A DNA stretch of 27,494 nt, taken from positions 1 to 27,494 of the IMG/VR virus record IMGVR_UViG_3300042924_004742, one strand, 5' to 3'. The translations under genes and the position numbers were made by a program. Under the pieces are notes generated by a model, which saw nothing but the letters and a program-made list of their open reading frames with translations, was not told the DNA's origin and did not search any database. The stretch is from a virus. Numbering within the stretch: the first letter of the stretch is position 1; each line of letters starts with the position of its first letter. This document shows, in pieces, positions 1-20,749 of the stretch.

Positions 1-126
1 ATGAACAAGGCCGTATCTGCAAACATTCAGGAACTGACCCGGGCCAACCGGGAGAAGCCTGCAGGCAAGAAACGAAGCGAAAAACAAATCGCTGCTATCG
101 CATACTCCGCAGCAAGAAAGAAATGA
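1..126 (+). CDS. Small basic phage protein, 41 residues, possibly cut at its 5' end
   Basis: An open frame begins with ATG at the first base of the window and ends at TGA 124-126. Because it starts exactly at the edge, I cannot tell whether this ATG is the true start or an internal methionine. The product is lysine/arginine rich and ends with a segment of the type K-x-S-E-K-Q-I-A-A-I-A-Y-S followed by basic residues. Very small basic phage proteins with a similar 'KQ-x-x-A-I-A' helix are common from memory, but their function is not known to me. Its stop overlaps the start of the next gene in an ATGA arrangement, so the two are probably co-translated on a rightward transcript from outside the window. 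Function unknown. Confidence 0.55.
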   Translation: MNKAVSANIQELTRANREKPAGKKRSEKQIAAIAYSAARKK

Positions 127-737
127 CAATAGACGAAAACGCCAAACACTACTTAGTCCACGCATTGTGGATTGTGGTACTCCTTTTTAGCCTTCAGACC
201 TGTATGCAGGAGAGGGAAAGGAGAAAGGAAAAAGAAGCCTTTATTGAATCCATACAGGACAGCGTAGTACACTACAAGAAGATTGGGGACGAGGTGTACG
301 CCCAAAACGCTCTACGGAGCCTCACAATCAACGAACTCAAGGCAAGCAATGTCAAGGGTAAGGCAGAGGTAAAGAAGCTCTCTAAGAAGCTCTCTGAGGC
401 TCTAGCGTTTGTTGACGTTATGGTGGTCCATGATACGGTCCGATCGGTGATTACTCAAAGGGACACGATTCGTGATTCGTTCACCTACCAAGACTCTTGT
501 TTGGCCCTGTCGGTGGAAGGGGATAGCATCGCCTACAAGATGGCGCCATTGAGCCTTCAGCTGATTCAGCATCGCGATGGGGATTTAATCATTGCATCCG
601 CCAAGGTGGACGGATGCGGGGTTGTGACCAAGATATCCGGATTCTCCGTGGTACAGCCCAAGAAGAAGTGGTACGAAAATCCCGTACTACTGGGGATACT
701 CGGCTTTACAGCCGGAGCATTCGCTATTTCACGATAA
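123..737 (+). CDS. Membrane-anchored coiled-coil protein, possible spanin- or lysis-cassette-type protein
   Basis: The 204-residue product has a hydrophobic segment at about residues 12-27 (VHALWIVVLLFSLQT), then a highly charged, probably coiled-coil stretch (about 30-95). A beta-rich middle follows, and a second hydrophobic segment lies at the extreme C-terminus (about 187-202). A transmembrane anchor, an extended periplasmic region and a possible second anchor fit spanin-like or lysis-associated proteins of phages of Gram-negative hosts. It also resembles in outline the DUF6549-type proteins seen in Bacteroidota phages, a family named from memory. A cysteine lies at the end of the first hydrophobic segment, but the segment looks more like a plain anchor than a clear lipobox. 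The start overlaps the preceding stop by four bases (ATGA). The 3' end overlaps the convergent gene on the other strand by 14 bases. No endolysin is in the window, so the lysis role is inference. Confidence 0.6.
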   Translation: MTIDENAKHYLVHALWIVVLLFSLQTCMQERERRKEKEAFIESIQDSVVHYKKIGDEVYAQNALRSLTINELKASNVKGKAEVKKLSKKLSEALAFVDVMVVHDTVRSVITQRDTIRDSFTYQDSCLALSVEGDSIAYKMAPLSLQLIQHRDGDLIIASAKVDGCGVVTKISGFSVVQPKKKWYENPVLLGILGFTAGAFAISR

Positions 738-1005
738 CGAAAGAAAGGTCAACCTGGATGCCCAAGACGTGGGCTAATGCCATTACGTCTTTTTGTGACG
801 CATAATTCTTGTTACCTTTTTCAAAATAGGGTGTGCTCATGTACTTTTGTATCCTTTGGTAATCAAGTTCATTTTCAGAGCATACTTTTAATAAAGAGGA
901 TTGCTTTCTCTTTATTTGTAACTTGATTAGTTGCCTCAATCGGCTGTTGCTTCTAAGAACGCAGTACTTGAAAGAACTCAGTTCAATTGGATCATCATTT
1001 GTCAT
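724..1005 (-). CDS. Small helix-turn-helix-like protein (XRE-type, tentative)
   Basis: The 93-residue product has a basic N-terminal half. A helical part follows, with a possible recognition helix around L-D-Y-Q-R-I-Q-K-Y-M (about residues 48-57). It closes with a pattern like D-V-M-A-L-A-H-V-L-G-I-Q-V (about 73-85), which resembles the last helix of XRE/Cro-family DNA-binding domains ('lakaLGv'). This is pattern recognition, not a database match. The start ATG lies 11 bases inside the 3' end of the giant gene, so its translation is probably coupled to that gene and it is the last gene of the leftward late transcript. A regulator expressed at the end of the virion operon could act late or switch expression. 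It could equally be a non-regulatory small protein. Its 3' end overlaps the convergent plus-strand gene by 14 bases. Confidence 0.6.
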   Translation of the reverse strand: MTNDDPIELSSFKYCVLRSNSRLRQLIKLQIKRKQSSLLKVCSENELDYQRIQKYMSTPYFEKGNKNYASQKDVMALAHVLGIQVDLSFVIVK

Positions 1006-4000
1006 CCAAGAGATTTCTTACTTTTTCTATTTCTGACTCAGAAAGAATGTCGTTTCCGACATTTGCGCTGTCTAGCCTAATAATATAATTAGATCTTTCT
1101 TTAAGGCCATCAATGGAGTTTATTTTTTTGGCTATAGCTTTTACTTTTGACTCACTTGATAGCCTAGCGAAATCCAAGAACTCATCGGGTACCTGGCCCG
1201 TAAAATATCCCTTATTAAAGCTCTTTACTAAACCTTCATACTGATCTTGAGTCATAGAGTATTCTCTAGCCGCATAATCGGTGTATCGCTTAACCTTGTC
1301 CAAAGATTTGTCTCTTTCGGCACCGGTCTGTCTAGCGGCCCTAAAACCCAAGTCTTTCATCATAGAGTTTAACTCTTTTATGTTTGACTTTTGGATTTCA
1401 TTCTTTTCAATTTTTGTTTTAGGCTCAATTTTGCCCTTCAGTACCTGCTCTTGGTAGTGCTTCTCCGACCAAGACTTGTTGAATATGTCTGTAGCCCTAA
1501 GCATTCTTTCCATAGCATTGTAATCCCTTGTGGCCGCTTCTGCAAATTGGTCAAAAATCTCAAAGAGTCTAGCTAATGGTATGCCTGTCAATGCCGATCC
1601 AGCATTAGCAATTCCTCGCAATATTTCGCCTTCATCAAATGACTCAGCGGAATCCCCAAACTGACGAAACTTTATTGAAAGACCGGGAGCGCCTGCAGAT
1701 ATGTAATCAGATAGTTTTTCGACAGCCATATTAAATTTCTCCCTAGCTGATGCCTCATCGTATTTCTCTTGATCAAACGAGTCCGTGATAAATGGTTTTA
1801 TTCCAACGGCAAACATCAGGTTTCCTGGGACGCCAAAGCCTGAGAAAAACCCGCTCAACAACTCCGTGTAATACTTTGACTCTGACTCTTTTTGTCTTTT
1901 TGATTTCTTTAAGTCTTTGTCTTCATCGTCATCGCCAAAGCCAAGTGCCCCATAAACCAACTCGGGAGTTCTTGAAACAAGCGTGAATAGGGCCGTACTT
2001 ATGAGCCCAAATTGCAGCATAATGTAGGCATGTCTTGCGGGATCCCCTATGCCTTTTGATAACAATTGTGCAGAAAGGATTGCACCTCTCATCATCTGTT
2101 GGCTAGCCGTCTGGTAGCTCATAAGAAGTCTTAAAAGCGGATTTCTTTGAGCATTACTGATCAGCATGTTGTTCCCTGATTGTTGCGACGCGTTTGTTGC
2201 CTTATAAAGTTCAAAGCTGGCATCATTTTGAGCTGCTATTCTTGCGCTGCTTTCATCCATCGTCTTTATGTATTCCTTATACCTTTCGTTCTTAATAGAA
2301 TCATAAAGAGGTCCTCCACCGATAACAATTGACAAAAAGTCAAAAACCGCCGTTGGAGTGTATCCTATTTTGAGCATTTTGTCAACTAATGAGAAAACGT
2401 CAATTTGCCCATCTTTCGTCCTTCTCTCTAGTTCTCTTGCGTCAATGCTGAATATTCTACCTCCGAATCTCTCCTTGACCCACGACATACTTTGGATTTC
2501 TTTTGTCGTAGAAATCCAATTCATTGATTTAACTGAACTGAGATATTTGCCAATACTTGGAGCTAATGGAGCAAAATTCAGCGTGGCAATAGGTTGGAAA
2601 AGAGCGGCCCTTGTGTTAAACCACATCTGACCTAATACGGATCTGTTCACCCAATTAGCAACTCCTTCACCAATAATCTTTGCTTCTATCTTTGAACTCT
2701 TATTTGTGACGACTCTTTGTACATTTGACTTTATTGAATCGGCGCCGGCTTCTCCATATTTGTTTTTTATCAATGTCATCTGCTCTTTGCCAAACATAGC
2801 CTTAGCATTATTCAACAGGGGCATTCTGGTGACCATATCGATCATTCCATCCATGTAGTTGTTATACTTGTACGCCACATTTGAGAAAACAATTTGCCCT
2901 CCATCTCCCCTTGAGATAACATTGTTTGACATTACCGACATCACCCCGTCCTTATTTGGTGAGCTAAGAACATCAATAGACTCATCAATCATTGCATCAT
3001 CGCCGACTATTGACAGCGGAGAATACGGTATAGACTGAGGTATGTTGTTTGAATAAACCTTATTAAGGATTTCTATAGCCCTTGCGTTTTCATCCGGATT
3101 CTTTGAGAAAGAAGAGTTTTTGTTGTACTGCTTAGGATCAAATGAAATCGTGCTATATCCGTAATTTGTTAAGGTAGGCAATATCTGTTCATTTAGAAAA
3201 TCTTGGTATGCTTGAGTGATCTCGCTTACGGCCCTCATTAATCCTTCATCATTTAACACATAGTCAATGATGCTATCTATATCTTCCTTGTTGTAGTTGA
3301 CGAGCCCTTCTCCACCTGCCCTAACTATAGCATCCGGATCCCTAAGCATCATGAATGTGTCTATTATTTGCCCAATAGTCAGCCCATCTTCGTTCGTTCC
3401 TTCTGCATACACATCTCCTATCCTTAGGACAATTGACTTTACCTTTTTGGAAATATCAATGTTAAAGCCGGCATTCTTTAGTTTTTCGGATATTTTATCA
3501 AATCTGCCGATTTGTTGCTTTAATTCATCTCTGCTGAAATCGGCTTTCCAAATCAAGTCAATAAAGTTCTTCTCAAAGAAATCGTAAGATTCATCGTTGT
3601 TGGAAAATACGGCAACTATATTCCTTGTGTCAAAAAGATGATCAAACTTCAGTTTACTTGTAAATTTTCCAAGTCTCCCTAAAAGACTTTTGTTTCGCAA
3701 GGTATTCCGATTTGTGTCTATAGCGATTACGGAGTACGAATTGCTTTCAAAAAAGTCTTTCCATTCAGATATGTTTTTCCTATCTACCTCTTGAATCTGT
3801 CCGCTTTCGTTATCAATAATATAAAAGGCAACACCCGGCCTTTTTGACTTCTCTTCGGCCGACTTGTAATCATTGACCTTTTCCGATGTCCCCAAAGAAT
3901 TTGATATAGCTATTATTGATCGTTCCTTTAAGGACTTATTGTGGTTACTCAATATCTTGTTTGTAGCAGACTGAGATCTAGCACCAGACTTAAATATTGA

Positions 4001-7000
4001 GTTTATCTCGTTGTATAGTGCCTTTAATTCCTTGCCATCCATTTGGCTTAGGCTTTCGTCATTAAAGATTTCAGAATAAAGCTTCAACTCAGATATTGAC
4101 TCATTCGTGAGTTTTGCCTTTGCCAATATACCCGATTTTGCTTTTGACCAACTGGATGGATTTAGCCTAAGTTTTATTTTTTCAATGATGCTATTCCTAG
4201 CTTCTTCAACATCTTTGGCTAATAGTTTTTCCTTTTGAGTCAAAGCTTTCTCAAGTTTCTTTTCAAGTCCTTGAGCCTTTTTATACAAATCAGGATACCT
4301 ATCTATTATGGCCAAGTTGAATTCGTCTTTGAAAAACCTACTCGCGTACTTAGAAAATTGCGGTCCGTTTTCTGCAAAGTACGGCTTAATCATTCCTAGA
4401 GCCGTGCTAGCCCTCGTGACTCCGTTATTGATTAATGCAGAAATTAGTTCTCCAACATCTTCGGTAAACTTTTTAAATCTTTCTGCATCCTGCTCAGGCA
4501 GATTTGCTATACCGAGCCCTCTGCTTTCGCCTCCTTTAACCCAATTAGATAAAGACTTTGCCGCTTTTTGAGCGGAAGATTTTACGCTTTTTGCCTGCGT
4601 ATCCGGCTGAGTTGTTGGCTTTTCTGCTTTTTCTTGCTGTTGTTCTCCGGCCAACAAGTCTTCTACTGCTTTGACCAATTCGGGGTTTGATCCGTCTTTC
4701 TTGGCTTTGTGGTAGGCTTCGGCCATTTTACTTGAATCACTAAAAGAGCTTGGAAGTTCCGTTATTGGGATTTCATTATCAGATATGTTTTCTATAATAG
4801 AGCTATCTATGACTATCAGTTCGTTCCTTGTGTCACTAGCAAAATCTTCTCTTAACAATATCCCCTTTACACCTTTCGATTTTAATTTATTTAATTGCTC
4901 TTGAGTAAGTGTTTGTCCCCTATTTGGCAAATTGTTTTTTTCCAGATAGTCAGCAAAAGAGGCAACGTCGTCAAAATAAACAAGCCCCTCGTTTTTTATT
5001 GAAACATATAGCGCATGTTTTTTTTCTCGTCCAAATCTATCATTAGCGCTCCAATCATCGCTACTGAAGTAAACACCAGGAATTGGAGAGTCTATTGATG
5101 ACTGTTTCTCATCAAACCCGTTTTTAAGTATACTTCTTTTGTCATTTTCGTTCCTAGCCAAATGAACGGACTTTATTGTTTTGGGCAGAAATGGTATAGC
5201 TGATGGGATAGATATATTGCCTCTTTTGTCTCCGCGTTGTGCTAAATTTATTATGTCAAGAATTTTACTAACCGCCCTATATCCCTCTTCTCCATTGACA
5301 ATTTCGTCAACAAAAGTTACAGTATCATCCTCTTTTGCCGCTTCCAAAGCCTTAGCCGTACTCTCCACGTCTTTTAATACGTCCGGCTGAGTTGTTGGCT
5401 TTTCTTGAACTGGCTTTTTTGCGGTAGGAGGAGCCTGAGCTCCTCCCTCTACCGCCGGAGTTACTTGCCCTTCTTGGCGCCCTTCTTCTTGAGGAAGGCG
5501 GGGAGGGGTTTCTCCTTCATCACCTCTTTCTTGGGTGACATTGGTTTCTTGCCGTACATCTTGTTCGGTTTGAGGTTGAACTCCGGCAGCTTCGGGTGCC
5601 GTTCCCGTTTCCCTGAGATTAGGGAAAATCTTTTTCACTTGTTCCACAGGAACAACGCGCTGTATCGTTCGTATGAAAGCACCTTCAGGTACTGTGCCTA
5701 TTTGCCTTTGAGATTCTGCAATAGCAATATCCAACGCTAAATCATTCCAGCCCATTGTTTCACCCTGAGTAGACTTTGCCCCGGGGGCGAAAGCGTTGTC
5801 AAGTTGTATCTCTTCGCCGGTATTTGCGTCACGCAATATGACGCCCATAAACCTTCCCGCATCGTCAAAGACCGAAGACACATACTCCATATTCGAAAAC
5901 GGAGTGCTTTTTGATTCTTCTTCCGAAACGACTTGTTGACTTTCTGGAGAAGAAAGTAACTTACCGCTAAAAGATTTTGGCGCTAATTGGTATACTAGAC
6001 CGCTTCTTGATTGGGTGATTGGGACTCTTCTGAGGACAACAATTCGTTTCTCTCCTGTTTTGGGGTCTGTGATTGTTGCTCCGTGGAATCTTTCTGCTGA
6101 GATTTTTTGCGGTAGCCCTGGTTTAGCAGCTCTGACAACACCTTTAACCTCGATTCCTTGTCCAGCTTGTTCAGTAATAGTAGTTGTTGCGAATTCATAG
6201 TTTAGTAGGTTGTCAATTTGTGACTCAATTAAATCGGAAAGGGTTTGCCTTTCTGTTTCAGAAAGGCTTTCGGACTCTAAGATACGGCTTTGTTCGTCAA
6301 TCATCTGCTCGGCTACAGCCTCAATCTCAGCCATATCAATTTCTTCGGCGTTGGTCATTCGCTGCACTAAGGGTGCAATGATAGGCTCAATCCTTTCAGA
6401 AACGGCGTTTAAGACATTTTGGTCTGATTCCGGTATCTGTAGCTCAATAGTCGGAAAGGCTTCTTCAGGAGCTTCTGTGACTGCTGGACGAGACATTTCT
6501 GCCTCGCTAAATATAGACGAGATCTCTTGGTTTATTTTGTCTATCTTGGCGGTATTCCTCTCACGTATTGCTTGAGGTGTATTCTTGTCCATCTTTGAAT
6601 TGATTGACTCAATTTCAAGCATTTTATCGGCAACCTTCCTGGCAGAAACATCATCAATGTCTTCTGGTATTTGACTGTATATGTTGCCAATCAAGGAAAG
6701 CCTATCAACATTCTTTTTGTACTGAGAGTCTTTGAACTTATCCTTGTTTTGCTCAAACAGATCAAGAGTCACTTCAACCTTGTTATTTCTTGCCACATTA
6801 TGGAACAAGTCTTCTTTAAGCCTTGATCCCGAATAAGCAAAGCCCACACCCCCCAATGGAGCCACGGCAACAAGCGTATTTACGGCTATACCAGCATAAT
6901 CCTCAAGGCTCTTCTCTTCAAATTGGGGTTGTCCTTTTAATTCAGGGAACTGATTCGTGATGGATGCATTAATGGACTCTTGAACGCCCTGGTCTAATAG

Positions 7001-8569
7001 CTCTTCTGCTACCTCAACTCCTGATGTTAACCCAAACGCCTTTATGCCTTGAGTACCGGCCTTTATCGCGAAATCAAGACTTTTCCCGGATGCTAATGCT
7101 TTCACGGCATTTTCAGAAAACGCTTTACTCATTCCGTTTTTGAAAAACCTGTTTATCGGAATGGCGTTCTCAATAAGGCCAGTCTTTGCGGCTCCAACCG
7201 CAGAAAGGATAGCCCTTGTCTGTGGGTCTATCTTTGCGCCAGCCTGCAACGCAGCCTGATCTATTTCCGCAGAATATTCATCATAAGTAAGTGCCGCTGT
7301 TCCAATTGCTCCAACCGCTAATTGACCAAGCCTACCGTAAGGTGTTGCAGCAGCAACAATAGACGGAATCATATTTAATCCTTGCTCAAATACAAAGCCC
7401 AAAGTGTTTGCAGACAACAACCCTCCTTCAACGAATTGACCGGTCTTTGGGTCATAGGGAGCCTTAAAAAGCGCAAGTCGTGGGTCCTTAGTTGCCAACA
7501 GGTTGTCCGTCAGGTATGACTTCATCTTATCCGCAATATCTGTTGCACCTAGTGCTCCGGCAAAATCGGAAAGTAAGTATCCGCCACCTCCAACAAGCCT
7601 TGAAGCAGCCAATATCGCTTTACCAAAGAAGTTAGTTTCATCCAGCTCTTTTGCCTGCTGTAGAACTCTTTCATTAATTTCCGCTAATCGCCCTTGCGCC
7701 TCTGGTATTCCATACTTTTTAACAGACTGCTCGTAGCCTGCATAACTTCTTTCAAAGTCGCCAAATTTTGCGTCAAAATCAGCCTGCAACTGATTAGCAA
7801 GTTCAGCGTATTGGTTGTACTCATCTTGAAGATCCATAGCGCCGTACCAATTGGCCTTGCTAATTGTGGAATTGATCTCGTCAATGGCGGCATTTCTTTC
7901 ATTTGCAAACTCGGGGTTTGATAAAGAGGCTTTTATGTCATCAAAAGAAAGAGGAGCGTCCGGATAATTCTCATTATAGTCATCAGCAGCAAATGCTTCG
8001 CTAGCAAATAGCGAGTTTGCTAGTATATTCCCTTTTCCAAAATCGGACTCGGAGCCAACAGCTCCTTCTTTGGCTATATTTTTGTAGTAATCCTCAATTG
8101 ATTTTAGATCCTTTTTCCCTGCCGTGAAATCAAGTATATTTCTTCCTTCTATTGTATTTGAGAACTTTGTTGGAAGTATTTCTACGCCTCTGCTCAAAAC
8201 TGGTTCGCTGTCAACTTGAACAAACGGACTCTCTAAACTTGACTCATCAATTTCGGGTCTTGCTGGTTGAACCATTTCCCCTCCTTGAAAACCAAACTGC
8301 TGAGGAATAAACGGAACTTCAACTCCGCCTCTTTCTCGCTGAAAAGCGACCCTTGTCCTTGGCAATGGAGGAGCAGACTTTAAGTCCTCTATTAAATTTC
8401 CTGTCCTTTTTGTCGGAGGAGATTCTACATTAAACTCTATTAGGTCTGCTTTATCCGGGTTGTCATTAACCCAGTTTTGGGCTAGCGTTAAGTCATCCAA
8501 ATTAGCGACATCATTTCCAAAATCCTGCCGTAATGCAGCAGCGAGTTCTTTGTATTTTATTTTTGGCAC
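995..8569 (-). CDS. Giant polyvalent internal virion (ejection) protein with an ADP-ribosyltransferase-like segment
   Basis: At 2524 residues this is the largest gene here. The start is GTG at 8567-8569, one base after the stop of the upstream gene; the frame has no ATG or GTG between it and the stop at 8600-8602. Visible regions are: a hydrophobic Ala/Gly-rich helical region (about 320-600); a disordered Pro/Gln/Glu-rich linker (about 990-1065); a segment resembling ADP-ribosyltransferase folds of polyvalent proteins (about 1130-1255, candidate H1136, Y1167, E1250); long coiled-coil stretches (about 1320-1500); and a C-terminal region (about 1965-2260) resembling LPD38-type polyvalent domains. 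That last region includes a hydrophobic segment near 2185-2215 followed by an acidic cluster. Proteins like this sit in phage heads and enter the host with the DNA. It follows three smaller ejection-type genes, which supports that role. I saw no RNA polymerase or lysozyme motif. Domain names are from memory; the internal virion role is inference from size and position. Confidence 0.8.
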   Translation of the reverse strand: MPKIKYKELAAALRQDFGNDVANLDDLTLAQNWVNDNPDKADLIEFNVESPPTKRTGNLIEDLKSAPPLPRTRVAFQRERGGVEVPFIPQQFGFQGGEMVQPARPEIDESSLESPFVQVDSEPVLSRGVEILPTKFSNTIEGRNILDFTAGKKDLKSIEDYYKNIAKEGAVGSESDFGKGNILANSLFASEAFAADDYNENYPDAPLSFDDIKASLSNPEFANERNAAIDEINSTISKANWYGAMDLQDEYNQYAELANQLQADFDAKFGDFERSYAGYEQSVKKYGIPEAQGRLAEINERVLQQAKELDETNFFGKAILAASRLVGGGGYLLSDFAGALGATDIADKMKSYLTDNLLATKDPRLALFKAPYDPKTGQFVEGGLLSANTLGFVFEQGLNMIPSIVAAATPYGRLGQLAVGAIGTAALTYDEYSAEIDQAALQAGAKIDPQTRAILSAVGAAKTGLIENAIPINRFFKNGMSKAFSENAVKALASGKSLDFAIKAGTQGIKAFGLTSGVEVAEELLDQGVQESINASITNQFPELKGQPQFEEKSLEDYAGIAVNTLVAVAPLGGVGFAYSGSRLKEDLFHNVARNNKVEVTLDLFEQNKDKFKDSQYKKNVDRLSLIGNIYSQIPEDIDDVSARKVADKMLEIESINSKMDKNTPQAIRERNTAKIDKINQEISSIFSEAEMSRPAVTEAPEEAFPTIELQIPESDQNVLNAVSERIEPIIAPLVQRMTNAEEIDMAEIEAVAEQMIDEQSRILESESLSETERQTLSDLIESQIDNLLNYEFATTTITEQAGQGIEVKGVVRAAKPGLPQKISAERFHGATITDPKTGEKRIVVLRRVPITQSRSGLVYQLAPKSFSGKLLSSPESQQVVSEEESKSTPFSNMEYVSSVFDDAGRFMGVILRDANTGEEIQLDNAFAPGAKSTQGETMGWNDLALDIAIAESQRQIGTVPEGAFIRTIQRVVPVEQVKKIFPNLRETGTAPEAAGVQPQTEQDVRQETNVTQERGDEGETPPRLPQEEGRQEGQVTPAVEGGAQAPPTAKKPVQEKPTTQPDVLKDVESTAKALEAAKEDDTVTFVDEIVNGEEGYRAVSKILDIINLAQRGDKRGNISIPSAIPFLPKTIKSVHLARNENDKRSILKNGFDEKQSSIDSPIPGVYFSSDDWSANDRFGREKKHALYVSIKNEGLVYFDDVASFADYLEKNNLPNRGQTLTQEQLNKLKSKGVKGILLREDFASDTRNELIVIDSSIIENISDNEIPITELPSSFSDSSKMAEAYHKAKKDGSNPELVKAVEDLLAGEQQQEKAEKPTTQPDTQAKSVKSSAQKAAKSLSNWVKGGESRGLGIANLPEQDAERFKKFTEDVGELISALINNGVTRASTALGMIKPYFAENGPQFSKYASRFFKDEFNLAIIDRYPDLYKKAQGLEKKLEKALTQKEKLLAKDVEEARNSIIEKIKLRLNPSSWSKAKSGILAKAKLTNESISELKLYSEIFNDESLSQMDGKELKALYNEINSIFKSGARSQSATNKILSNHNKSLKERSIIAISNSLGTSEKVNDYKSAEEKSKRPGVAFYIIDNESGQIQEVDRKNISEWKDFFESNSYSVIAIDTNRNTLRNKSLLGRLGKFTSKLKFDHLFDTRNIVAVFSNNDESYDFFEKNFIDLIWKADFSRDELKQQIGRFDKISEKLKNAGFNIDISKKVKSIVLRIGDVYAEGTNEDGLTIGQIIDTFMMLRDPDAIVRAGGEGLVNYNKEDIDSIIDYVLNDEGLMRAVSEITQAYQDFLNEQILPTLTNYGYSTISFDPKQYNKNSSFSKNPDENARAIEILNKVYSNNIPQSIPYSPLSIVGDDAMIDESIDVLSSPNKDGVMSVMSNNVISRGDGGQIVFSNVAYKYNNYMDGMIDMVTRMPLLNNAKAMFGKEQMTLIKNKYGEAGADSIKSNVQRVVTNKSSKIEAKIIGEGVANWVNRSVLGQMWFNTRAALFQPIATLNFAPLAPSIGKYLSSVKSMNWISTTKEIQSMSWVKERFGGRIFSIDARELERRTKDGQIDVFSLVDKMLKIGYTPTAVFDFLSIVIGGGPLYDSIKNERYKEYIKTMDESSARIAAQNDASFELYKATNASQQSGNNMLISNAQRNPLLRLLMSYQTASQQMMRGAILSAQLLSKGIGDPARHAYIMLQFGLISTALFTLVSRTPELVYGALGFGDDDEDKDLKKSKRQKESESKYYTELLSGFFSGFGVPGNLMFAVGIKPFITDSFDQEKYDEASAREKFNMAVEKLSDYISAGAPGLSIKFRQFGDSAESFDEGEILRGIANAGSALTGIPLARLFEIFDQFAEAATRDYNAMERMLRATDIFNKSWSEKHYQEQVLKGKIEPKTKIEKNEIQKSNIKELNSMMKDLGFRAARQTGAERDKSLDKVKRYTDYAAREYSMTQDQYEGLVKSFNKGYFTGQVPDEFLDFARLSSESKVKAIAKKINSIDGLKERSNYIIRLDSANVGNDILSESEIEKVRNLLDDK
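4602..4625. repeat. 24-base perfect direct repeat, copy A (inside the giant gene)
   Basis: The plus-strand sequence begins tccggctgagttgttggct and ends ttct. It is identical to the copy at 5382-5405. On the coding (minus) strand it encodes the peptide E-K-P-T-T-Q-P-D at about residues 1315-1322. The match stops on both sides after exactly 24 bases. This copy lies on the C-terminal side of the ADP-ribosyltransferase-like segment. Confidence 0.9.
5382..5405. repeat. 24-base perfect direct repeat, copy B (inside the giant gene)
   Basis: This is identical to 4602-4625 and lies 780 bases away, which is exactly 260 codons, so both copies are read in the same frame and encode E-K-P-T-T-Q-P-D (about residues 1055-1062). 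It lies on the N-terminal side of the ADP-ribosyltransferase-like segment, at the end of the Pro/Gln/Glu-rich linker. Recombination between the copies would remove the segment without breaking the reading frame. Confidence 0.9.
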
Positions 8570-8570
8570 C

Positions 8571-9812
8571 TTATTTTGTTTTACTAGAATACCTCTTGAT
8601 TAGTTCACCTACTGCAGTTCCTTTTTGGACTTGCCTTTTAGTAGGAGCCAAATTTGCTCCTTTGCCAAGAAGTAGTTGCCTAGCCCTATTCTCCTCAAGA
8701 ACGACATATGCCTCTGTTTCTAAGACCTGGCCTGCAGCATCTCTTTGAGCGATTGTTGCCGACGCCTTATTCTCAACCCAACCAACGCCAACTGGAGCTC
8801 TGCCGACAACCTTCTTTCCAACAGCATCTTTTGGTGTTAAAATAGGCACTTTCTTCCCGTCCTTTAAATAATATGGGTAGGTTCTTACCTCGTTAATAGT
8901 TGGCTTGCCGATTAATATTTCGCCATTTACCCCAACAACAGGATTCACTAGCCCTTCCATTTGAGTAGGGGCTGATAACATTGCGTCTCCAGTAGGGATC
9001 GTTAGAGGAGCTGTTGTTCCGGTTGGTTGATTGGTGTTAAGAATTATTCTTTCACCGCTTAATACGCCTTCATAGAATTCAATAAGCGGAGAAATGTATT
9101 GTAAGGCATCCGGGTCGTCTATGTATTTTTGGGACACCTTTTTTGCCTTTTCTAACTGAGTCCTAGTGACTGTCTTTAATTCGTTCAAGCCGGCCGTATC
9201 TCCTCGATTAATTCCTTGATTTGATTGAGACAAAATATAATCTCTTTGTTTTTCAAAGATATCTCCGCCCAAATCTGCCCGGATGTTTGCCTCAAGTTTT
9301 TTACGCTTACGATCTTCCTGTTGTTCTTTTAAACCACCAATTTGCATATTGTAAAGATCCTCCTGCATTTTTTGGTCCTGAATCCTTCTTTGTTCAGCCT
9401 GTTGATTTTGCGCATAGACCTTTTGGGCGGCACCCGATTGAATGTCCCTAGCTTTTTGCTGAAGCGACTGCGTCATCTTTCGGAATTCTTGATTCAATGT
9501 AAAACTTTCAGGCGACGTCATGTCAACTTTACTTGGGTCAATACCAAGTTGAGCCGCCTTGTTGACAAATTGGTTCAATTCATCAATGCCTGCGTAAAAC
9601 TGCTGTCTTACGGCATCTTCGGCCGTTGCCATCACATTGGGGTCTAGACCAAATTGCGACTCGGAAACCATGTCCATGGGTTGCTGCATGGCACCACGAG
9701 AAAGTGGGTTTGCCGTAGCAGCATTGACGCCCTGGTTCATTCTAAACACAGGCACTTGAAATCCAAACCCAGCGGTTTGCCGAGAGTTATTTGGGGTTAA
9801 TTCAACAGGCAT
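8571..9812 (-). CDS. Q-rich coiled-coil virion protein, probable ejection protein
   Basis: The 413-residue product starts at ATG 9810-9812. It has a disordered N-terminus rich in N, Q, G and M, then a long helical, coiled-coil-prone region rich in Q, E, K and R (about 110-190). The C-terminal half (about 260-413) is more mixed and beta-rich, with several G-V/G-K turns. I know no specific family for it. It sits between another Q-rich protein and the giant polyvalent protein, and its stop is one base from the giant gene's GTG. T7 and P22 have comparable sets of three or more internal proteins at this point in the order, which is the basis for the ejection-protein call. The 33-base leader contains AAAGG close to the start, a weak ribosome-binding signal. 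Confidence 0.65.
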   Translation of the reverse strand: MPVELTPNNSRQTAGFGFQVPVFRMNQGVNAATANPLSRGAMQQPMDMVSESQFGLDPNVMATAEDAVRQQFYAGIDELNQFVNKAAQLGIDPSKVDMTSPESFTLNQEFRKMTQSLQQKARDIQSGAAQKVYAQNQQAEQRRIQDQKMQEDLYNMQIGGLKEQQEDRKRKKLEANIRADLGGDIFEKQRDYILSQSNQGINRGDTAGLNELKTVTRTQLEKAKKVSQKYIDDPDALQYISPLIEFYEGVLSGERIILNTNQPTGTTAPLTIPTGDAMLSAPTQMEGLVNPVVGVNGEILIGKPTINEVRTYPYYLKDGKKVPILTPKDAVGKKVVGRAPVGVGWVENKASATIAQRDAAGQVLETEAYVVLEENRARQLLLGKGANLAPTKRQVQKGTAVGELIKRYSSKTK

Positions 9813-9845
9813 ATACCTTTGTTTTTTTATCTATTATTGGCGTCA

Positions 9846-10730
9846 TTATCTTTTTCTACGCGAAGGCATTCTAGGCCCGAATACGGGGACCCTCTCTGGA
9901 GATCCATACATATAGTCTGGAAATAATCTGGAATAGTAAAACTCTCCTCCCATTGGCACTCCAAATCCTCCCATCATCTCGGGCACATAGGAATACCCTG
10001 AGCTATCGGGAGTTGATAATGCATTTCGCTCGGCCTCTTCAGCCATCGCAACTGCATCGCTTTTTTCTTTCTCCGACATTTTCTTCCATGACTTATAATT
10101 GTTAATTGAAGTCATGTAATTCGGAATATCTCCGAGTATTGCGCCAAGTGATGCCCCAATATTAGAGCGCTGTTGACTGACGTCTCCTTGCAATCCAGCT
10201 CTTTGATTCACGAAATCTTCCATAGCTAATTGATAGACCCTCAAATTTTGATCTCTTTCTTGGGCTAACTCTTGATTACGCATGTTGACCAACTGATCCA
10301 GTTCGGATCTGTTCTTTTGCTGCATAATCGCGTCATTAAGGAGACCTTTGCGTTGTTGATCTGCAATGTTTGAACTGATGCCCTGCATGTAGGCCAATCC
10401 GGCACCACCACCCAAGTTCGCGGCAATCTGTCTGCCACGTTCAAACTGCCTTCCTGCTTGCTCATCGGCCATCCTTTGGTAACCCATTCTTGGCTGGTCA
10501 ACCAATTGTTGCTGTTGAGCTATTCTTTGCGACAAAATTGGATTTGCCCTAAATTGAGGCAAAGTAGGGGCTTGCAACGAATTGAGTTGCTCTTGGGCTC
10601 TCCTGCGAGCCCTATTGGACACCAATGCCGAAAGAATATTTCCTGCTATCGGAGCCCCAACCGAAAACAATGGATTTACACCCATTCTTGACTTTAAGCT
10701 TTGTGCTAATAATTGATCCATGTCGCTCAT
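9846..10730 (-). CDS. Helical Q/N/R-rich virion protein, probable T7 gp14-like ejection protein
   Basis: The 294-residue product begins MSDMDQ. A hydrophobic helix at about residues 20-40 (F-S-V-G-A-P-I-A-G-N-I-L-S-A-L-V) leads into an Arg-rich, then Gln-rich helical region. A short glycine-rich stretch lies near residue 105 (A-A-N-L-G-G-G-A-G-L-A-Y). The C-terminus is rich in Y, G, P and M and ends with a strongly basic tail. This mix of one membrane-active helix and a Q-rich helical body recalls small internal core proteins such as T7 gp14, but similarity at this level is architectural only. It begins two bases after the stop of the glycine-zipper gene (TAAAGATG on the coding strand), so the two are translated together. 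Function inferred from position and composition. Confidence 0.65.
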   Translation of the reverse strand: MSDMDQLLAQSLKSRMGVNPLFSVGAPIAGNILSALVSNRARRRAQEQLNSLQAPTLPQFRANPILSQRIAQQQQLVDQPRMGYQRMADEQAGRQFERGRQIAANLGGGAGLAYMQGISSNIADQQRKGLLNDAIMQQKNRSELDQLVNMRNQELAQERDQNLRVYQLAMEDFVNQRAGLQGDVSQQRSNIGASLGAILGDIPNYMTSINNYKSWKKMSEKEKSDAVAMAEEAERNALSTPDSSGYSYVPEMMGGFGVPMGGEFYYSRLFPDYMYGSPERVPVFGPRMPSRRKR

Positions 10731-10732
10731 CT

Positions 10733-11182
10733 TTATACAAATTTAAGGTATTCAGCCCTATTAGGCATAACATTTTTCCGCATATTTTGGATTTCGTTAA
10801 GGTAAGCATCTTGCCTTACTTGCGCCATAGCGTCAGAAATAGCCTTATTTCTATCGGCCATTTCGCTGGCGTACATCGCATCGTAACTCTCTTCTGCATT
10901 CTGTTCAGCTTCCCTTGCAGCTCCACCTCCGAACAGCCCTGACGCCGCTCCACCAAAAGCTCCCCCAATGCTAGCTCCAAGGGTAGCTCCAAGTTTAGCC
11001 CCAGCCGCTGTTCCTGCACCAGGAGCTAACAAAGACCCAGCAATGGCTCCCAATCCGGTGCCAATAGCCGTGGTCCATGGAGATGCCTTGGCCCGTTGTT
11101 CTTCTTTGGCTCTGTCTCCCATCTCTCGGACATAGTCTGTCCGGCTGGGCATCATAACAGGGTTGTATAAACTTGGATCCAT
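10733..11182 (-). CDS. Small glycine-zipper protein, probable tail/ejection channel component
   Basis: The 149-residue product has a charged N-terminus and a central hydrophobic Gly/Ala-rich block (about 39-90). In that block glycine recurs every third or fourth residue (G-T-G-L-G-A-I-A-G, then G-A-K-L-G-A-T-L-G-A-S-I-G-G), which is a glycine zipper. The C-terminal part (about 90-149) is charged, helical and Met/Asn/Glu rich. Glycine-zipper helices pack tightly in membranes and are typical of pore-forming or membrane-inserting proteins, so a role in the channel that carries DNA across the host envelope is a reasonable inference. The start overlaps the stop of the muzzle gene by one base (TAATG), implying translational coupling. 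No enzyme motif is visible. Confidence 0.65.
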   Translation of the reverse strand: MDPSLYNPVMMPSRTDYVREMGDRAKEEQRAKASPWTTAIGTGLGAIAGSLLAPGAGTAAGAKLGATLGASIGGAFGGAASGLFGGGAAREAEQNAEESYDAMYASEMADRNKAISDAMAQVRQDAYLNEIQNMRKNVMPNRAEYLKFV

Positions 11183-14100
11183 TATCTGAAGACCTTTCTG
11201 AATTGATTAACTGCTGACCGAAGGTTTATGGCACTAGTAGTATTGTTGAAGAACAGCTTTATGGTGTGGTAAGACCCGACAAGCCTCTTTCCAGATGTTC
11301 CGCGAATGATGTTCGCCGTAGCCATACCAAGACGACTAACGATATTGCTTGTTTGGTTTCCGGTTGTATCGGATGCCAATGTTGATGTGTCGTTATAAGC
11401 CGTGATATTGTATTGACTGAAAAGAGACTGACTATTAATACCAACAATGTCTAGCACTTTTGGTTCATTGATGTCTTTGTTGAAGACATACTCAATCTCC
11501 GCATCAACCACTCCTATGTGGTTTCCAGTAAGAAGGTCTAAGTAATCGTTCCCTCCTTTCCATTGATTAATATGCAAGTCAAGCCTATTATGGCCCGGGT
11601 TACCGCTATGTGATTGGATCATATAGGTGCTCCCGTTCAAGTCAAAGATGTACAGCGGCCTGTTGCCGTATTTACCTCCGTGGCCATTGCCTTGTACGAC
11701 CCAATCCAAATTGGAAACAAAAGCGTCAAGCTTGGCATTGTAAGTCATCCATACATTGACGTCTTGGTTATCGTACGGATTGTTTCTCAAAAACCCAATA
11801 ATGTACAAGTTCTTGTCAACGCGGTCGTAAGATAGGGTTATAGAATTCTCGAGCCATGGAACATTCGTCTTTGAAAACTTAGTCCTAAACTCTTCTTCCA
11901 TCCTAGCAAGCGAAACAATCTTGGCTCCATCGGAGATGTTGACCAGGGCGCCTCTTTTCGTGTCTAATACATAAACGCCATTCTCTGTCGGAATCATGCA
12001 GCGAATAAGTTCTACCCCATAATTTGATGTTATTGTTTTTGGTGGAGAATTTTCGCTAATGTAAGTTCCGCCCTGCACGGTTAACACCTCATTGTCTTGA
12101 AGTGTCGTTAGCGACTTATTCACATACAAAAGAGATATAGCATCGTCCTGACCGATGATGGGCTCTCCGTCGTTAAGGAGAGCAATCTTGGTGACTTTGC
12201 CATAGCGCTCGTCCATGTCAAAATAATTCGGAGCCCTAAATCTTGAAAATCCATCAACCCCCAAATCAGCCGATCGAGCATCCGAATAAATAAGCCTTGC
12301 AGGGTAGTTGTTAGAGATTTGAACAAGCCTGTTTTCCGAGAAGAACGATTTAGGCAAGTTCTCAATGGAATACCCAAAATTGTAGTTGTAGAACGCGTCG
12401 GCTTGGTAATGACCAACAGTTCCAGCCGTAGCGCCGGTTAGGTTGTAGTAGGGGAAGCGATCTCTGTCTGAATTGTAAAAAGCATTGGCCTCTCCTTCCG
12501 TGTACATTTCAATGTATTCGGGACTTGTTTTTGTTCCAGTCTTAAATACTTTTGTGCTCGTTGAATTGCAGTTGCCTTGAACATCGGCAAAAAGTCCGTA
12601 TGTTCCACTTGATGTTGGTACATAATACGAAGGCACATTGTACTCATCGTTAACCTTATAACGATACTTTGATATAAAGCAGTCGCCTCCCCACACCTCA
12701 AGAACAACCCTTTGACTGGTTCCAGTAATCGCCGAATATGCTCCCGTGTGGAAATATTCTTGTATTCGGTTTGGGTCGCCATACCTTGAATCCTGCTTAC
12801 CTTCTCTTATGTTGGCAACATACAGCGCCTGCTGAATGTCCGTTGAAGGGCTTGAGTATTGGTTAAAAGGTGTATCTCCGCCAACATAAGAAAACTCTAC
12901 GCCACAATCAACATTTTCTACTGGAGCCGCGGCTTTACCGGAAACAATTGTTGGATAGGATGGTATTGCATTGACGTTGAATCCAGGAAGTTGAGACCCA
13001 AGCCAAGTTACATTCATTAATGGATTTCCATAGATAAGTCCATTTCTGAGTTGCCTTGTTCCGCCTGTTGGGTTGTACGTGTTTAAGTACTGAGAAAAAG
13101 CAACGCTCGCAAAAGTATTAACTCTTCCGGTATTCGCCGTGTCTCTTGGAATATACCCAAATTGTCCCGCGCTCAATGGACAGTAATTGGCCGTAATTAG
13201 ATATAGCGGGTCGTCAAGGAATTGATTCATTGAAATAGCCAAAGATCTTTGCGCCTCAATATTAGAATTCCAAAGGGAGGTATTTGTAGAGGACATGTCA
13301 ATAGACGGGTTTCTTTGCTGACTTGTCAAATCAGTTCCGGCTAATAGATAATTGACGACGCTTCTTGCCGCAGTAATTGTTGACCCAGGAGAAGAAGCCC
13401 GTTCTGATGACCTCAAAAGTATTTTTGATTGCCCCTTTGTTATTGGTATAATCAGCTCTGTTGTTGACAAAGAGCTTAGGTTCATCATTGTTCTTGTGTA
13501 ATACGCAAAAGGCAATCCCGTACTTGCAAGGCTTCCGGTTACATCCGCGTATTTTTGCTGACCAATGTATGATGCAGTCTGTATCCCATTTACTTGAAGA
13601 AACGACTCTTGTATTTTTCTGTTGTACGTATCAACATAGGTGCCTCCTGTTCCAGCTGAACTTTGCGTACGCATATTGATATAATTGTTCGGGTACCAAT
13701 GCAATCTGTGGTCCAAACAAGAATAAACCCTTGCCTCAACGTATCCGGTTGGATACGATATAGACATTCCTCCAGATGTAACGGTTGACGTAGTTGTCGT
13801 TGGAGTTAGGGACGACAATGTAAATCCACAAACATCAACAATGTCTAAATTCAATGATATTAGCTCTGGAGTTGGTATCAATGGTGTCCCCTCGGAGTTG
13901 TAGACGTAGTCAACTGATGGGGCAAAACACTTCTTCCACATCATTCTGTTCTCAGGAATGCTATTTATACTCTTGTACGCAGGAAGTTGGTATGATGGAC
14001 CTCCAAACACAGACAAGAACTCCATGCTTCTTGCCGCGCCCATTTTTAAAGACTTTGGTCCTAAATAGTCAAGGTCTCCAATTCCATTGGTTACGGTGTA

Positions 14101-17523: not shown

Positions 17524-18459
17524 TTACTTGTCAGTCCATTCTAGGTCGTCGTTTTCTCCAACAGTCAGCACTTGGCCGGTTGTGCCTACAGCTAAGTTCT
17601 TCCAAGAAGACCCGTCCCAATACTTAATGTCGCCCTTGGCATCTCCATTGCTGAACCCAGGACCCGCGGGCCCTGTTGCGCCTTGCGCACCTTGTGGCCC
17701 CGCCTCGCCAGGAGGCCCAGGTTCTCCAGGGAATCCCTGTAGCCCTTGTGCCCCTGCTGGTCCTTGCGGTCCTTGTGGGCCTGTTGGACCTTGTGAGCCA
17801 TTAGAGCCTGGGTCTCCCTTTGGACCTGCCTCTCCAGCTGGGCCTCGTTCCCCAGGAACCCCTGGAGCGCCAGGAGGCCCAGGATTACCCTGAGCGCCTT
17901 GTGTTCCCGGTTGACCTGTTTCACCAGTTGGTCCAACATCGCCAACCAATGCCAGTAATTCCCAATCACTTGATTCTATGCTCGGAGTCTGAGTTGTTTG
18001 TGCTACAACGCATATCCAGCTGCTTCCTCCATAACTGACGGTGTCGTTTCGAAAATAGACAGTTGATGGGGCATAAGGTCCTTGCCATGCTACCCCAATA
18101 GGCCCTCGTGGACCCGTCGGTCCCGTTGGTCCTTGTGGTCCTTGTGGTCCTGTACTTCCAGATGCTCCGGCTGGACCCGCAGGTCCAGTAGCACCATTGC
18201 TGCCAACAACCCTGCCGGCATTGACCAATCGGCCGCTGACAAATCGCAGAATCAAATCGTTTTGCTCAATGTAGGCCGTCTCTATTTCATCAAGCTGCAC
18301 TTGCGGAACAGGAACTTGTGACGCCTGAGTAGCCAAAAACGTAGCCACCCTATCGGACGAAGATCCGATATTTGCGGCTATTTCAACAGGACTAGCATCT
18401 GGGTACCTTTTTCGGTACCTCAAGATGCGTAGCTCTGTATCTGTAAATGTTGATGGCAT
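17524..18459 (-). CDS. Collagen-like fibre protein with an embedded carbohydrate-binding-like module
   Basis: The 311-residue product has five parts. Residues 1-50 form an HTH-like helical head ([10 protein letters not shown] and [10 protein letters not shown]). A first collagen run of about 12 Gly-X-Y triplets covers about 86-121. A Trp/Tyr-rich module (about 122-172) has the spacing of small CBM5/12-like or fibre binding domains ([25 protein letters not shown]). A second run of about 31 uninterrupted triplets covers about 173-266. The tip (about 270-311) has [11 protein letters not shown] and G-T-T-G-Q-V-L, a pattern common at tail-fibre ends. Collagen triplets imply a rigid trimer. Two genes downstream of the capsid gene, it may be a head fibre; a tail fibre is the alternative. 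It is preceded by a strong Shine-Dalgarno sequence, unlike several neighbours, and followed by a terminator. Confidence 0.85.
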
Positions 18460-19378: not shown

Positions 19379-20749
19379 TTACGCTGCGTACAACAAGCCG
19401 TGGTTGTTGGCTGCGCGCAATTCAACACCGATGGAAGAGTAGAAGTCTACTGTGAATCCATCTTTACCGTTAGAACGAGCGGCTCCGGAACCGGCCTCTG
19501 GGGTAGTGATACCCTCTTGGACGGTGCGACGGAACTCAAGGCTCTGACCCAACAGGTCTTGCTTGTAGCGCAAGTTGATGAGTGGGTTGCCACGATCGTC
19601 GGTACCCATGTTCAAGAACAGCATGGCTTTGTCCCAGTTGATGCCTGAAGTGGCAGGAGCAGGGAACAGGGCCTCGTTGGCGAATGGGTAGTACAGAACA
19701 AAGTTCAAGATTTTGTCCATGAACTTGTACTTGGTAATGTTCAATCCGGTCATAAGACCATCGCCGGAGAACACACCGAAGCTGATGCCACCGTTCAAGG
19801 TGTAGTCGCGGAGTGCGAACTGAGCGTCAGCATAGGCAGAGCTACCGCAAAGCACAGTAAACTCGCTTCCGTTACTGTTCAAGCACATCAAGCGAACTTG
19901 CTCGGCCAAGTCTGTTTCCGCAATAGCAGAAGAATAGGTTCCAACAACACCATCTGCCTGAATTCGTGGCAAGATACCATTACCTCCAAGGCGACCAGAC
20001 ATTACGTTACCAGTTGTAGCTGATCCGTTTGACTTTGCGGCCAAGATGTACATCTCGCGGTCCATGGCCATCTCTTGCATGGTTTCCATCTCGTTGATGT
20101 AGTAGTAAGACCACTCGCTGTCAGACTTCTTTACGTACTTGAGGTTAGATCCTTGAGTCGTGGAACAGACCACAGAACGACGCATAATGCCGAGGTACTC
20201 GCTGACCTGGTTTTCCTGCCATACACGACCGGATGGGCTATCAGAATATTCAGCCTGCAAGTTGTATAAGTGAGCAAACTTGATTCCGGCAGTTGCGATA
20301 CTTACGCCAAAGTTGGTGCCCAAGGCTTGAAGCTGTAATGTACCAGAAGCCCCATTACCTCCACCACCACTAGTGATACCGGTAACAATCGCATAAGCAT
20401 TGTTCTCAAAGCGAATTACATCTCCGGTCAAGAACGAAGCTTGGGTACCGGCTGCGTATGTGACTGTTCCAGTTGTGTCTCCAGAAGCACCAGTAGCGGC
20501 AGATGCAGCAACCGATTGACGGAATTTGCCTTTTTCAAACCAGTTGAAAACATCGTTACCGACAACGGGGTTCTTGCGCCCGATACGGCTCAAGAGGGTT
20601 GTAATGGTGTACTGAGGGAAGCGATACGTGATATAGTCGCTGAAATCGGGTTTTTGGATTCCACCAAAAACGTAGGTGCTATCCACATTACCAGTTCTGA
20701 TGGTATTTGGGGTAGCATTGTTTGGATTGATTGTATTAATGTAAGCCAT
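19379..20749 (-). CDS. Major capsid protein (HK97-fold expected)
   Basis: The 456-residue product follows portal and scaffold genes and has its own terminator, as expected for the most abundant virion protein. The N-terminal arm is Asn/Thr rich. A beta-rich, Gly/Thr-rich insertion (about 80-158) contains L-T-G-D-V-I-R-F-E-N-N-A-Y-A-I-V, which resembles the E-loop or inserted barrel region of capsid proteins. A helical core follows with E-M-E-T-M-Q-E-M-A-M-D-R-E-M-Y (about 220-234), corresponding to the spine helix of HK97-type shells. The C-terminus has V-D-F-Y-S-S-I-G-V-E-L-R-A. The sequence looks closest to capsid proteins of crAss-like and related Bacteroidota podoviruses, from memory. The start has no Shine-Dalgarno sequence; AAACAAAAAA precedes the ATG, which suits a Bacteroidota host. 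Confidence 0.8.
   Translation of the reverse strand: MAYINTINPNNATPNTIRTGNVDSTYVFGGIQKPDFSDYITYRFPQYTITTLLSRIGRKNPVVGNDVFNWFEKGKFRQSVAASAATGASGDTTGTVTYAAGTQASFLTGDVIRFENNAYAIVTGITSGGGGNGASGTLQLQALGTNFGVSIATAGIKFAHLYNLQAEYSDSPSGRVWQENQVSEYLGIMRRSVVCSTTQGSNLKYVKKSDSEWSYYYINEMETMQEMAMDREMYILAAKSNGSATTGNVMSGRLGGNGILPRIQADGVVGTYSSAIAETDLAEQVRLMCLNSNGSEFTVLCGSSAYADAQFALRDYTLNGGISFGVFSGDGLMTGLNITKYKFMDKILNFVLYYPFANEALFPAPATSGINWDKAMLFLNMGTDDRGNPLINLRYKQDLLGQSLEFRRTVQEGITTPEAGSGAARSNGKDGFTVDFYSSIGVELRAANNHGLLYAA

Follow-up and report, generated by a model that had tools for sequence, protein, structure and literature searches.

Giant phage proteins that carry host-acting enzymes vary highly, and the route by which their domains are added or replaced in frame had been unclear. 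At the locus described here, a segment resembling an ADP-ribosyltransferase (ART) lies inside such a giant protein and is bracketed by two identical copies of a 24-base sequence. The window, by which we mean the whole stretch of DNA that was analysed, comprises 27,494 nucleotides of a viral record from IMG/VR (IMGVR_UViG_3300042924_004742). An earlier note, made without database searches, had proposed that this segment is a swappable effector cassette carried inside an injected protein. Our analysis indicates that the segment is likely (probability roughly 0.77) to be an effector cassette that can be exchanged, occupying a hypervariable slot in a giant phage protein of the polyvalent type. The features are listed below in the order in which they are translated; L006 and L050 are a closer and a more distant relative of the window.

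995..8569, minus strand: giant open reading frame (ORF) of 2,524 aa with a GTG start, the carrier of the cassette; it ends the gene run behind a 1,604-aa virion structural gene
5406..8569, minus strand: conserved N-terminal part, aa 1–1055 (aa identity 93% to L006 and 52% to L050)
5382..5405, minus strand: linker repeat, upstream copy (EKPTTQPD), which retains the upstream CAA (Q) context of the single copy in L006
5339..5380, minus strand: N adaptor VLKDVESTAKALEA (aa 1064–1077), just inside the upstream linker copy
4730..5338, minus strand: variable insert of 203 aa (aa 1078–1280), ART-like, with a weak Pfam match
4772..5116, minus strand: stretch matching Pfam ART-PolyVal (PF18760), E 8.4e-4, sub-threshold
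4646..4729, minus strand: C adaptor KMAEAYHKAKKDGSNPELVKAVEDLLAG (aa 1281–1308), just inside the downstream linker copy
4626..4645, minus strand: short tail EQQQEKA, from the C adaptor to the downstream linker copy
4602..4625, minus strand: linker repeat, downstream copy (EKPTTQPD), which retains the downstream DTQAK context common with L006
995..4601, minus strand: conserved C-terminal part, aa 1324–2524 (aa identity 97% to L006)

Behind the virion structural gene comes a run of small genes that ends with the giant gene, and the record also encodes a portal, a terminase and a capsid protein. The portal is distantly related (~23% identity) to portals of Flavobacterium, Bacteroides and Cellulophaga phages. 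The window most likely belongs to an uncultured Bacteroidetes phage whose giant protein would be delivered into a Bacteroidetes host, although injection is inferred and we have no data on this phage. Gene order likewise suggests a virion-borne role for the giant protein, in ejection or as cargo, and fits the label of ejection protein given in the earlier note; this remains an inference, as packaging is untested and injection has not been shown. Its basis is the polyvalent-protein model (PMC5512222) and the crassvirus cargo proteins (PMC10172136). Searches of the phage collection with tblastn gave no match to the giant protein, its C-terminal part or the ART insert.

The 24-mer TCCGGCTGAGTTGTTGGCTTTTCT occurs twice in the window, at 4602–4625 and 5382–5405, with 24/24 bases identical, a spacing of 780 nt and no extension of the identity past 24 nt at either edge. 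It is the longest exact direct repeat of the whole window. Both copies are in frame on the minus strand of the ORF at 995–8569, where they encode EKPTTQPD at aa 1056–1063 and 1316–1323, and the positions, spacing and peptide that the earlier note had described for this in-frame pair were thus confirmed. One rival explanation treats the 24-mer as low-complexity linker sequence that chance, or selection acting on the peptide, has repeated, and Pro/Thr/Glu-rich linkers are frequent in the giant protein. Against this, 300 synonymous-codon shuffles of the giant gene gave longest repeats of mostly 11–15 nt and at most 20 nt, and 300 codon-order shuffles gave 17 nt or less, so shuffling never reached 24. 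The match also includes synonymous sites: given the peptide EKPTTQPD, identical codons at all seven whole residues have P = 8e-4, and we therefore regard the 24-mer as a duplication at the DNA level, beyond a resemblance between peptides. Because, in addition, the segment is not kept in all relatives (L006) and comparable linker duplications recur around other frames, as described below, the low-complexity reading is refuted and can be all but dismissed. A second rival, that the repeat layout is an assembly artefact of a metagenomic contig, draws on the window being a single metagenome-derived viral record. However, two IMG/VR contigs from other samples (L002 and L003), which are 97.8% identical to the window in DNA over 15 kb, retain the 24-mer pair at the identical 780-nt spacing. 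The pair is therefore not an assembly accident, and this explanation too is refuted, with next to no room left for it.

The insert matches ART-PolyVal with 20.5 bits over 115 residues (E 8.4e-4). As the curated cut-off of 31.2 was not reached, we call it ART-like and not a member of ART-PolyVal. The active site described for that family is H-Y-D, with H in strand 1, Y in strand 2 and D in strand 5 (PMC5512222), and H1136, Y1167 and E1250 (or D1255) are placed as in an H-Y-D/E ART. This placement was made by inspection; automatic alignments misplaced the motifs, and the structure model of the insert was unusable. The ART-like domain is the sole domain recognised in the giant protein of the window. 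It is without a close homologue beyond near-identical relatives in the fetched loci and the phage collection, and a PDB sequence search with the frame and with the ART gave no match. The ART-like call of the earlier note thus held in part, on the strength of a sub-threshold Pfam match and candidate H-Y-D/E residues. We consider this identity moderately supported; it is inferred from sequence alone, as is ART activity.

Is the segment present, absent or replaced in relatives? The earlier note had proposed this check, and had held that its idea would fail if all relatives kept the segment with diverged linkers. That outcome did not occur. L006, found through the C-terminal part of the giant protein, aligns to window positions 1–4625 at 95.7% and 5414–11340 at 92.8% DNA identity, and over these ~10.5 kb of aligned DNA it departs from the window only between 4625 and 5414. 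Homology ends at the last base of one linker copy (4625) and restarts 9 nt outside the other (5414), and where the window carries the ART-like cassette the slot of L006 holds an unrelated module of ~2.2 kb, which is a replacement. Only one linker copy is present in L006; its upstream context, CAA, is that of the upstream copy in the window, and its downstream context, GATACGCAGG, is that of the downstream copy. L006 is not an empty site, as it carries another module, and simple insertion is therefore unproven. Deletion of the segment by recombination between the two copies, which the earlier note had envisaged, was not shown. In the more distant relative L050, the slot holds a chain of domains, GNAT-like, ART-like and ParB-like by inspection, that ends in a framed cassette with a different insert. 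Comparison with L050 revealed conserved peptides at both ends of the segment. The idea of a swappable cassette is thus supported, but the 24-mer is an outer scar, and the conserved edges are the N and C adaptors inside it. The idea also extends to a class, with linker duplications at other frames and single-linker alleles lacking a frame in another family. As a separate observation, the alternative module of L006 (L006:5875-8116) includes a conserved domain bearing the motif EIQSDWGQ, homologues of which occur in the cyanobacterial Dolichospermum phage Dfl-JY45 (28%) and in a phage record from Manatee Spring, and part of this module (GGKANIDLTFGVVP...) is common to L050.

A degenerate DNA pattern for the C adaptor was found in 47 IMG/VR contigs and 4 bacterial genome contigs, always in a large ORF and preceded by a different sequence each time. 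The consensus over 40 distinct copies is xISEAYHKAKxDGSNPELVKAVExLL, with eight invariant residues. Using a position-specific score matrix (listing threshold 9), we found that in 46 of 49 large ORFs the N adaptor (ALKDVESTAKALEG) precedes the C adaptor; nearly all real pairs scored 20–43, against a maximum of 8.0 in a reversed-sequence control. An independent scan that began with the N adaptor placed a C adaptor within 400 aa after 20 of 28 strong matches and after none of 19 weak ones. Among the strong matches without a C adaptor, four or five extend past the end of the retrieved DNA, the C adaptor is degenerate in two (L170 and L183), and L190 lacks one. With duplicates removed, 63 contigs carry 67 distinct frames; their inserts range from 17 to 329 aa and fall into 50 sequence-similarity clusters. 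Inspection together with Pfam and PHROG matches identified several ARTs and ParB-like, metallopeptidase-like and NlpC/P60-like inserts. Near-empty frames also occur, many short inserts have no recognisable domain, and most genomes have one frame. No family in Pfam, NCBIfam or PHROG describes the frame, and searches with the C adaptor gave one insignificant match in phages and zero in plasmids. The recurrence of this adaptor pair around dozens of unrelated segments suggests that these phages trade host-acting domains in frame. The pair also provides a practical probe, as it points to dozens of candidate effector domains that are short, mostly without annotation and exactly delimited.

Several individual frames are worth recording. 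Tandem frames separated by short linkers occur within one protein in L141 (two frames), L130 and L156. L146, which is the same contig as L103 and is binned as Candidatus Nomurabacteria, has a frame with a short insert in a 634-aa reverse-strand ORF; this could reflect either a contig of phage origin or transfer into a different phylum. The metallopeptidase-like insert at L109:8400-9374 matches a stretch of an N4-type virion RNA polymerase family (phrog_2206, E 3.5e-8).

Two familiar kinds of element were considered for the frame and rejected. Inteins do not fit, as frames are as short as ~59 aa, starting with ALKDVES and ending with VKAVEDLL, without splice-junction residues. Nor does a transposon or integron cassette, given that the window has no inverted repeat of 16 nt or longer, that inserts are in one frame with the giant ORF and that the duplications vary in length.

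For the 64-aa short frame of L122, modelled with 13 short frames, AlphaFold2 predicted helices at residues 8–18, 35–48 and 52–63 (pLDDT 87.7, pTM 0.73). The predicted frame is thus a three-helix unit, to which the N adaptor contributes one helix and the C adaptor two. For the frame and insert of the window itself, the model reached a pLDDT of 43 with only the C hairpin (~72) usable, and Foldseek searches with the frame against PDB and BFVD gave no significant match. A rival explanation holds that the frame is an ordinary conserved small domain, inherited vertically, with a loop that tolerates long insertions; it would have little to do with mobility, and the repeats would be incidental. The compact three-helix prediction, the existence of short and near-empty frames and the presence of one frame in most genomes speak for it.

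The distribution of frames speaks against it. Outside the adaptor region the window protein resembles almost no other carrier, and the carriers form several unrelated groups. DNA identity is restricted to the frame in the unrelated giants L126 and L132 (71%) and in L127 and L131 (75%); L133 and L151 are 84% identical across it and also show lesser protein similarity immediately upstream of the N adaptor, besides a weak distant match. Comparing the DNA of the window with that of L109, we found only the two adaptors to be alike (32 nt at 96.9% and 89 nt at 87.6%), the insert between them being ART-like in the window and metallopeptidase-like in L109. The close relatives L113 and L134 show identity until 36 nt into the 42-nt N adaptor and again from 7 nt into the C adaptor, and their inserts of 199 and 155 aa are unrelated. 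Codon identity in the adaptors exceeds a codon-usage null (z 9.3 and 12.5, uncorrected for relatedness). Together, these comparisons present the frame as a unit that moves between giant proteins: its sharing and the swaps between relatives are shown, and the order and direction of events are inferred. For the ordinary-domain explanation, frames in giants that are dissimilar outside the adaptors, and inserts and frames common to otherwise unrelated proteins, are difficult to accommodate. The enrichment of flanking duplications and the finding that close relatives differ in having or lacking the frame, both presented next, weaken it further, and we consider it very unlikely.

Linker duplication was assessed across the set by comparing the 90 nt upstream of each N adaptor with the 96 nt downstream of its C adaptor, with the expectation taken from mismatched pairs. 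A flanking match score of at least 14 was reached in 11 of 64 frames, against 0.32 expected, and a score of at least 18 in 7 of the 64, against 0.08 expected. The duplicated linkers measure 39 nt in L191, 34 in L193, 33 in L113/L134, 31 in L117, 24 in the window and 23 in L133. Recognisable flanking repeats are limited to 11–14 of the 64 frames. In L191 the linker EQQPISTTQS recurs several times between modules. A search for relatives of L117 gave only its own contig.

A junction search in the L113/L134 family yielded eight contigs, two of which (L201 and L208) were left out of the allele reading. Four others (L202, L203, L205 and L206) lack a frame and contain only one linker, GQPSMMKRTPA or a near variant of it; L202 and L203 look identical over the stretch read and count once, so there are fewer than four independent frame-less alleles. 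In the remaining two, L204 (the L134 contig) and L207 (the L113 contig), frames that hold unrelated inserts are flanked by the linker on each side. The single linker of L202, 33 nt long, aligns to both copies of L204, at 91% to the upstream copy, and downstream homology between L202 and L204 restarts at the first base of the single linker. Alleles with and without the frame thus exist among close relatives. Because the frame-less alleles carry another module to the left of the linker, which the framed alleles lack, these events are replacements or insertion combined with loss, and simple insertion is undemonstrated.

These junctions also bear on a narrower rival, in which linkers are the sole points of exchange by homologous recombination and the adaptors are kept for docking, folding or proteolytic release, not as recombination handles. 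The repeated linker of L191, the break at a linker in L006 and the difference at a linker between the L202 and L204 alleles favour it. However, the breaks between L113 and L134 fall inside the adaptors, the DNA likeness between the window and L109 is confined to the two adaptors, and adaptor codon identity is above the null. We therefore consider the linker-only explanation unlikely.

Under the exchangeable-cassette reading that we prefer, the cassette consists of the ART-like domain within a small split helical frame, with the N-adaptor helix before the insert and the C-adaptor hairpin after it. Because the adaptors are predicted to fold together, unrelated domains might be tolerated between them with the rest of the chain undisturbed. 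New cassettes would enter in frame at inter-module linkers, leaving the linker duplicated on both sides, as in the 24-mer. Inserts of established frames could then be replaced through recombination inside the conserved adaptors, and the module could be removed cleanly if the linker copies recombined. The giant protein would probably be virion-borne and delivered to a Bacteroidetes host, and the ART-like domain would there modify a protein of that host. We infer, and have not shown, the order of events and their direction, the machinery of recombination, what the frame does, packaging into the virion, injection and enzymatic activity. In the window record and its near relatives we found no ERF or RecT family recombinase, and only a few of 29 records had one; for this reason we name no recombinase. 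A bolder reading, against which we lean slightly, is that the framed cassette is a self-contained, in-frame mobile unit spreading between unrelated giant phage proteins, in which the split mini-domain would offer host-acting domains a universal socket, exchange would use the adaptors as handles, and the linker duplication would be an integration scar.

Polyvalent proteins, large multidomain proteins described in phages and conjugative elements, were proposed to be injected, and cassette recombination was raised for one Verrucomicrobium locus (Iyer et al. 2017, PMC5512222). Our carriers are similarly large phage proteins encoded next to structural genes, and as a set they resemble polyvalent proteins in having varying combinations of ART, ParB-like and metallopeptidase domains. 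The window protein meets the polyvalent criterion of size and position (2,524 aa, after tail/virion structural genes); as to multiple domains, it shows only the ART-like one, and its slot relatives show GNAT-like, ART-like and ParB-like segments. A difference is that we found in that study no paired framing adaptors, no duplicated linkers and no alleles without a frame, and its main text uses the word 'linker' 0 times. Polymorphic toxins (PMC3482391) also combine a constant carrier with effector domains that recombine beside a conserved motif. Here, unlike in those toxins, exchange takes place within the chain and on two sides, with adaptors flanking the insert and ~1,200 conserved aa of the carrier following it; the arrangement of a C-terminal toxin and an adjacent immunity gene is not met, the insert being internal and the slot having no immunity gene. 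Recent domain-level shuffling within phage genes was reported by Smug et al. 2023 (PMC10684548). Our observations resemble that mosaicism but differ in that exchange is confined to a defined frame, and that study makes no mention of ejection proteins, polyvalent proteins or linkers. It was thus already known that polyvalent proteins vary in their domain make-up and that cassettes recombine in polymorphic toxins; paired adaptors, linker scars and framed and frame-less alleles were not found in the family libraries or the open-licence literature searched. A recurrent frame with visible scars offers an answer to the question of in-frame exchange that is testable both in sequence data and at the bench.

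Two minor observations concern the rest of the window. Its major capsid protein (19379–20749) is 99–100% identical to those of L012–L014 and only 90% identical to those of the L002 and L003 contigs; the giant gene is ~97.8% identical in DNA to the latter two, and the genomes are therefore mosaic. A 311-aa ORF at 17524–18459 contains long collagen-like Gly-X-Y repeats and is perhaps part of a tail fibre.
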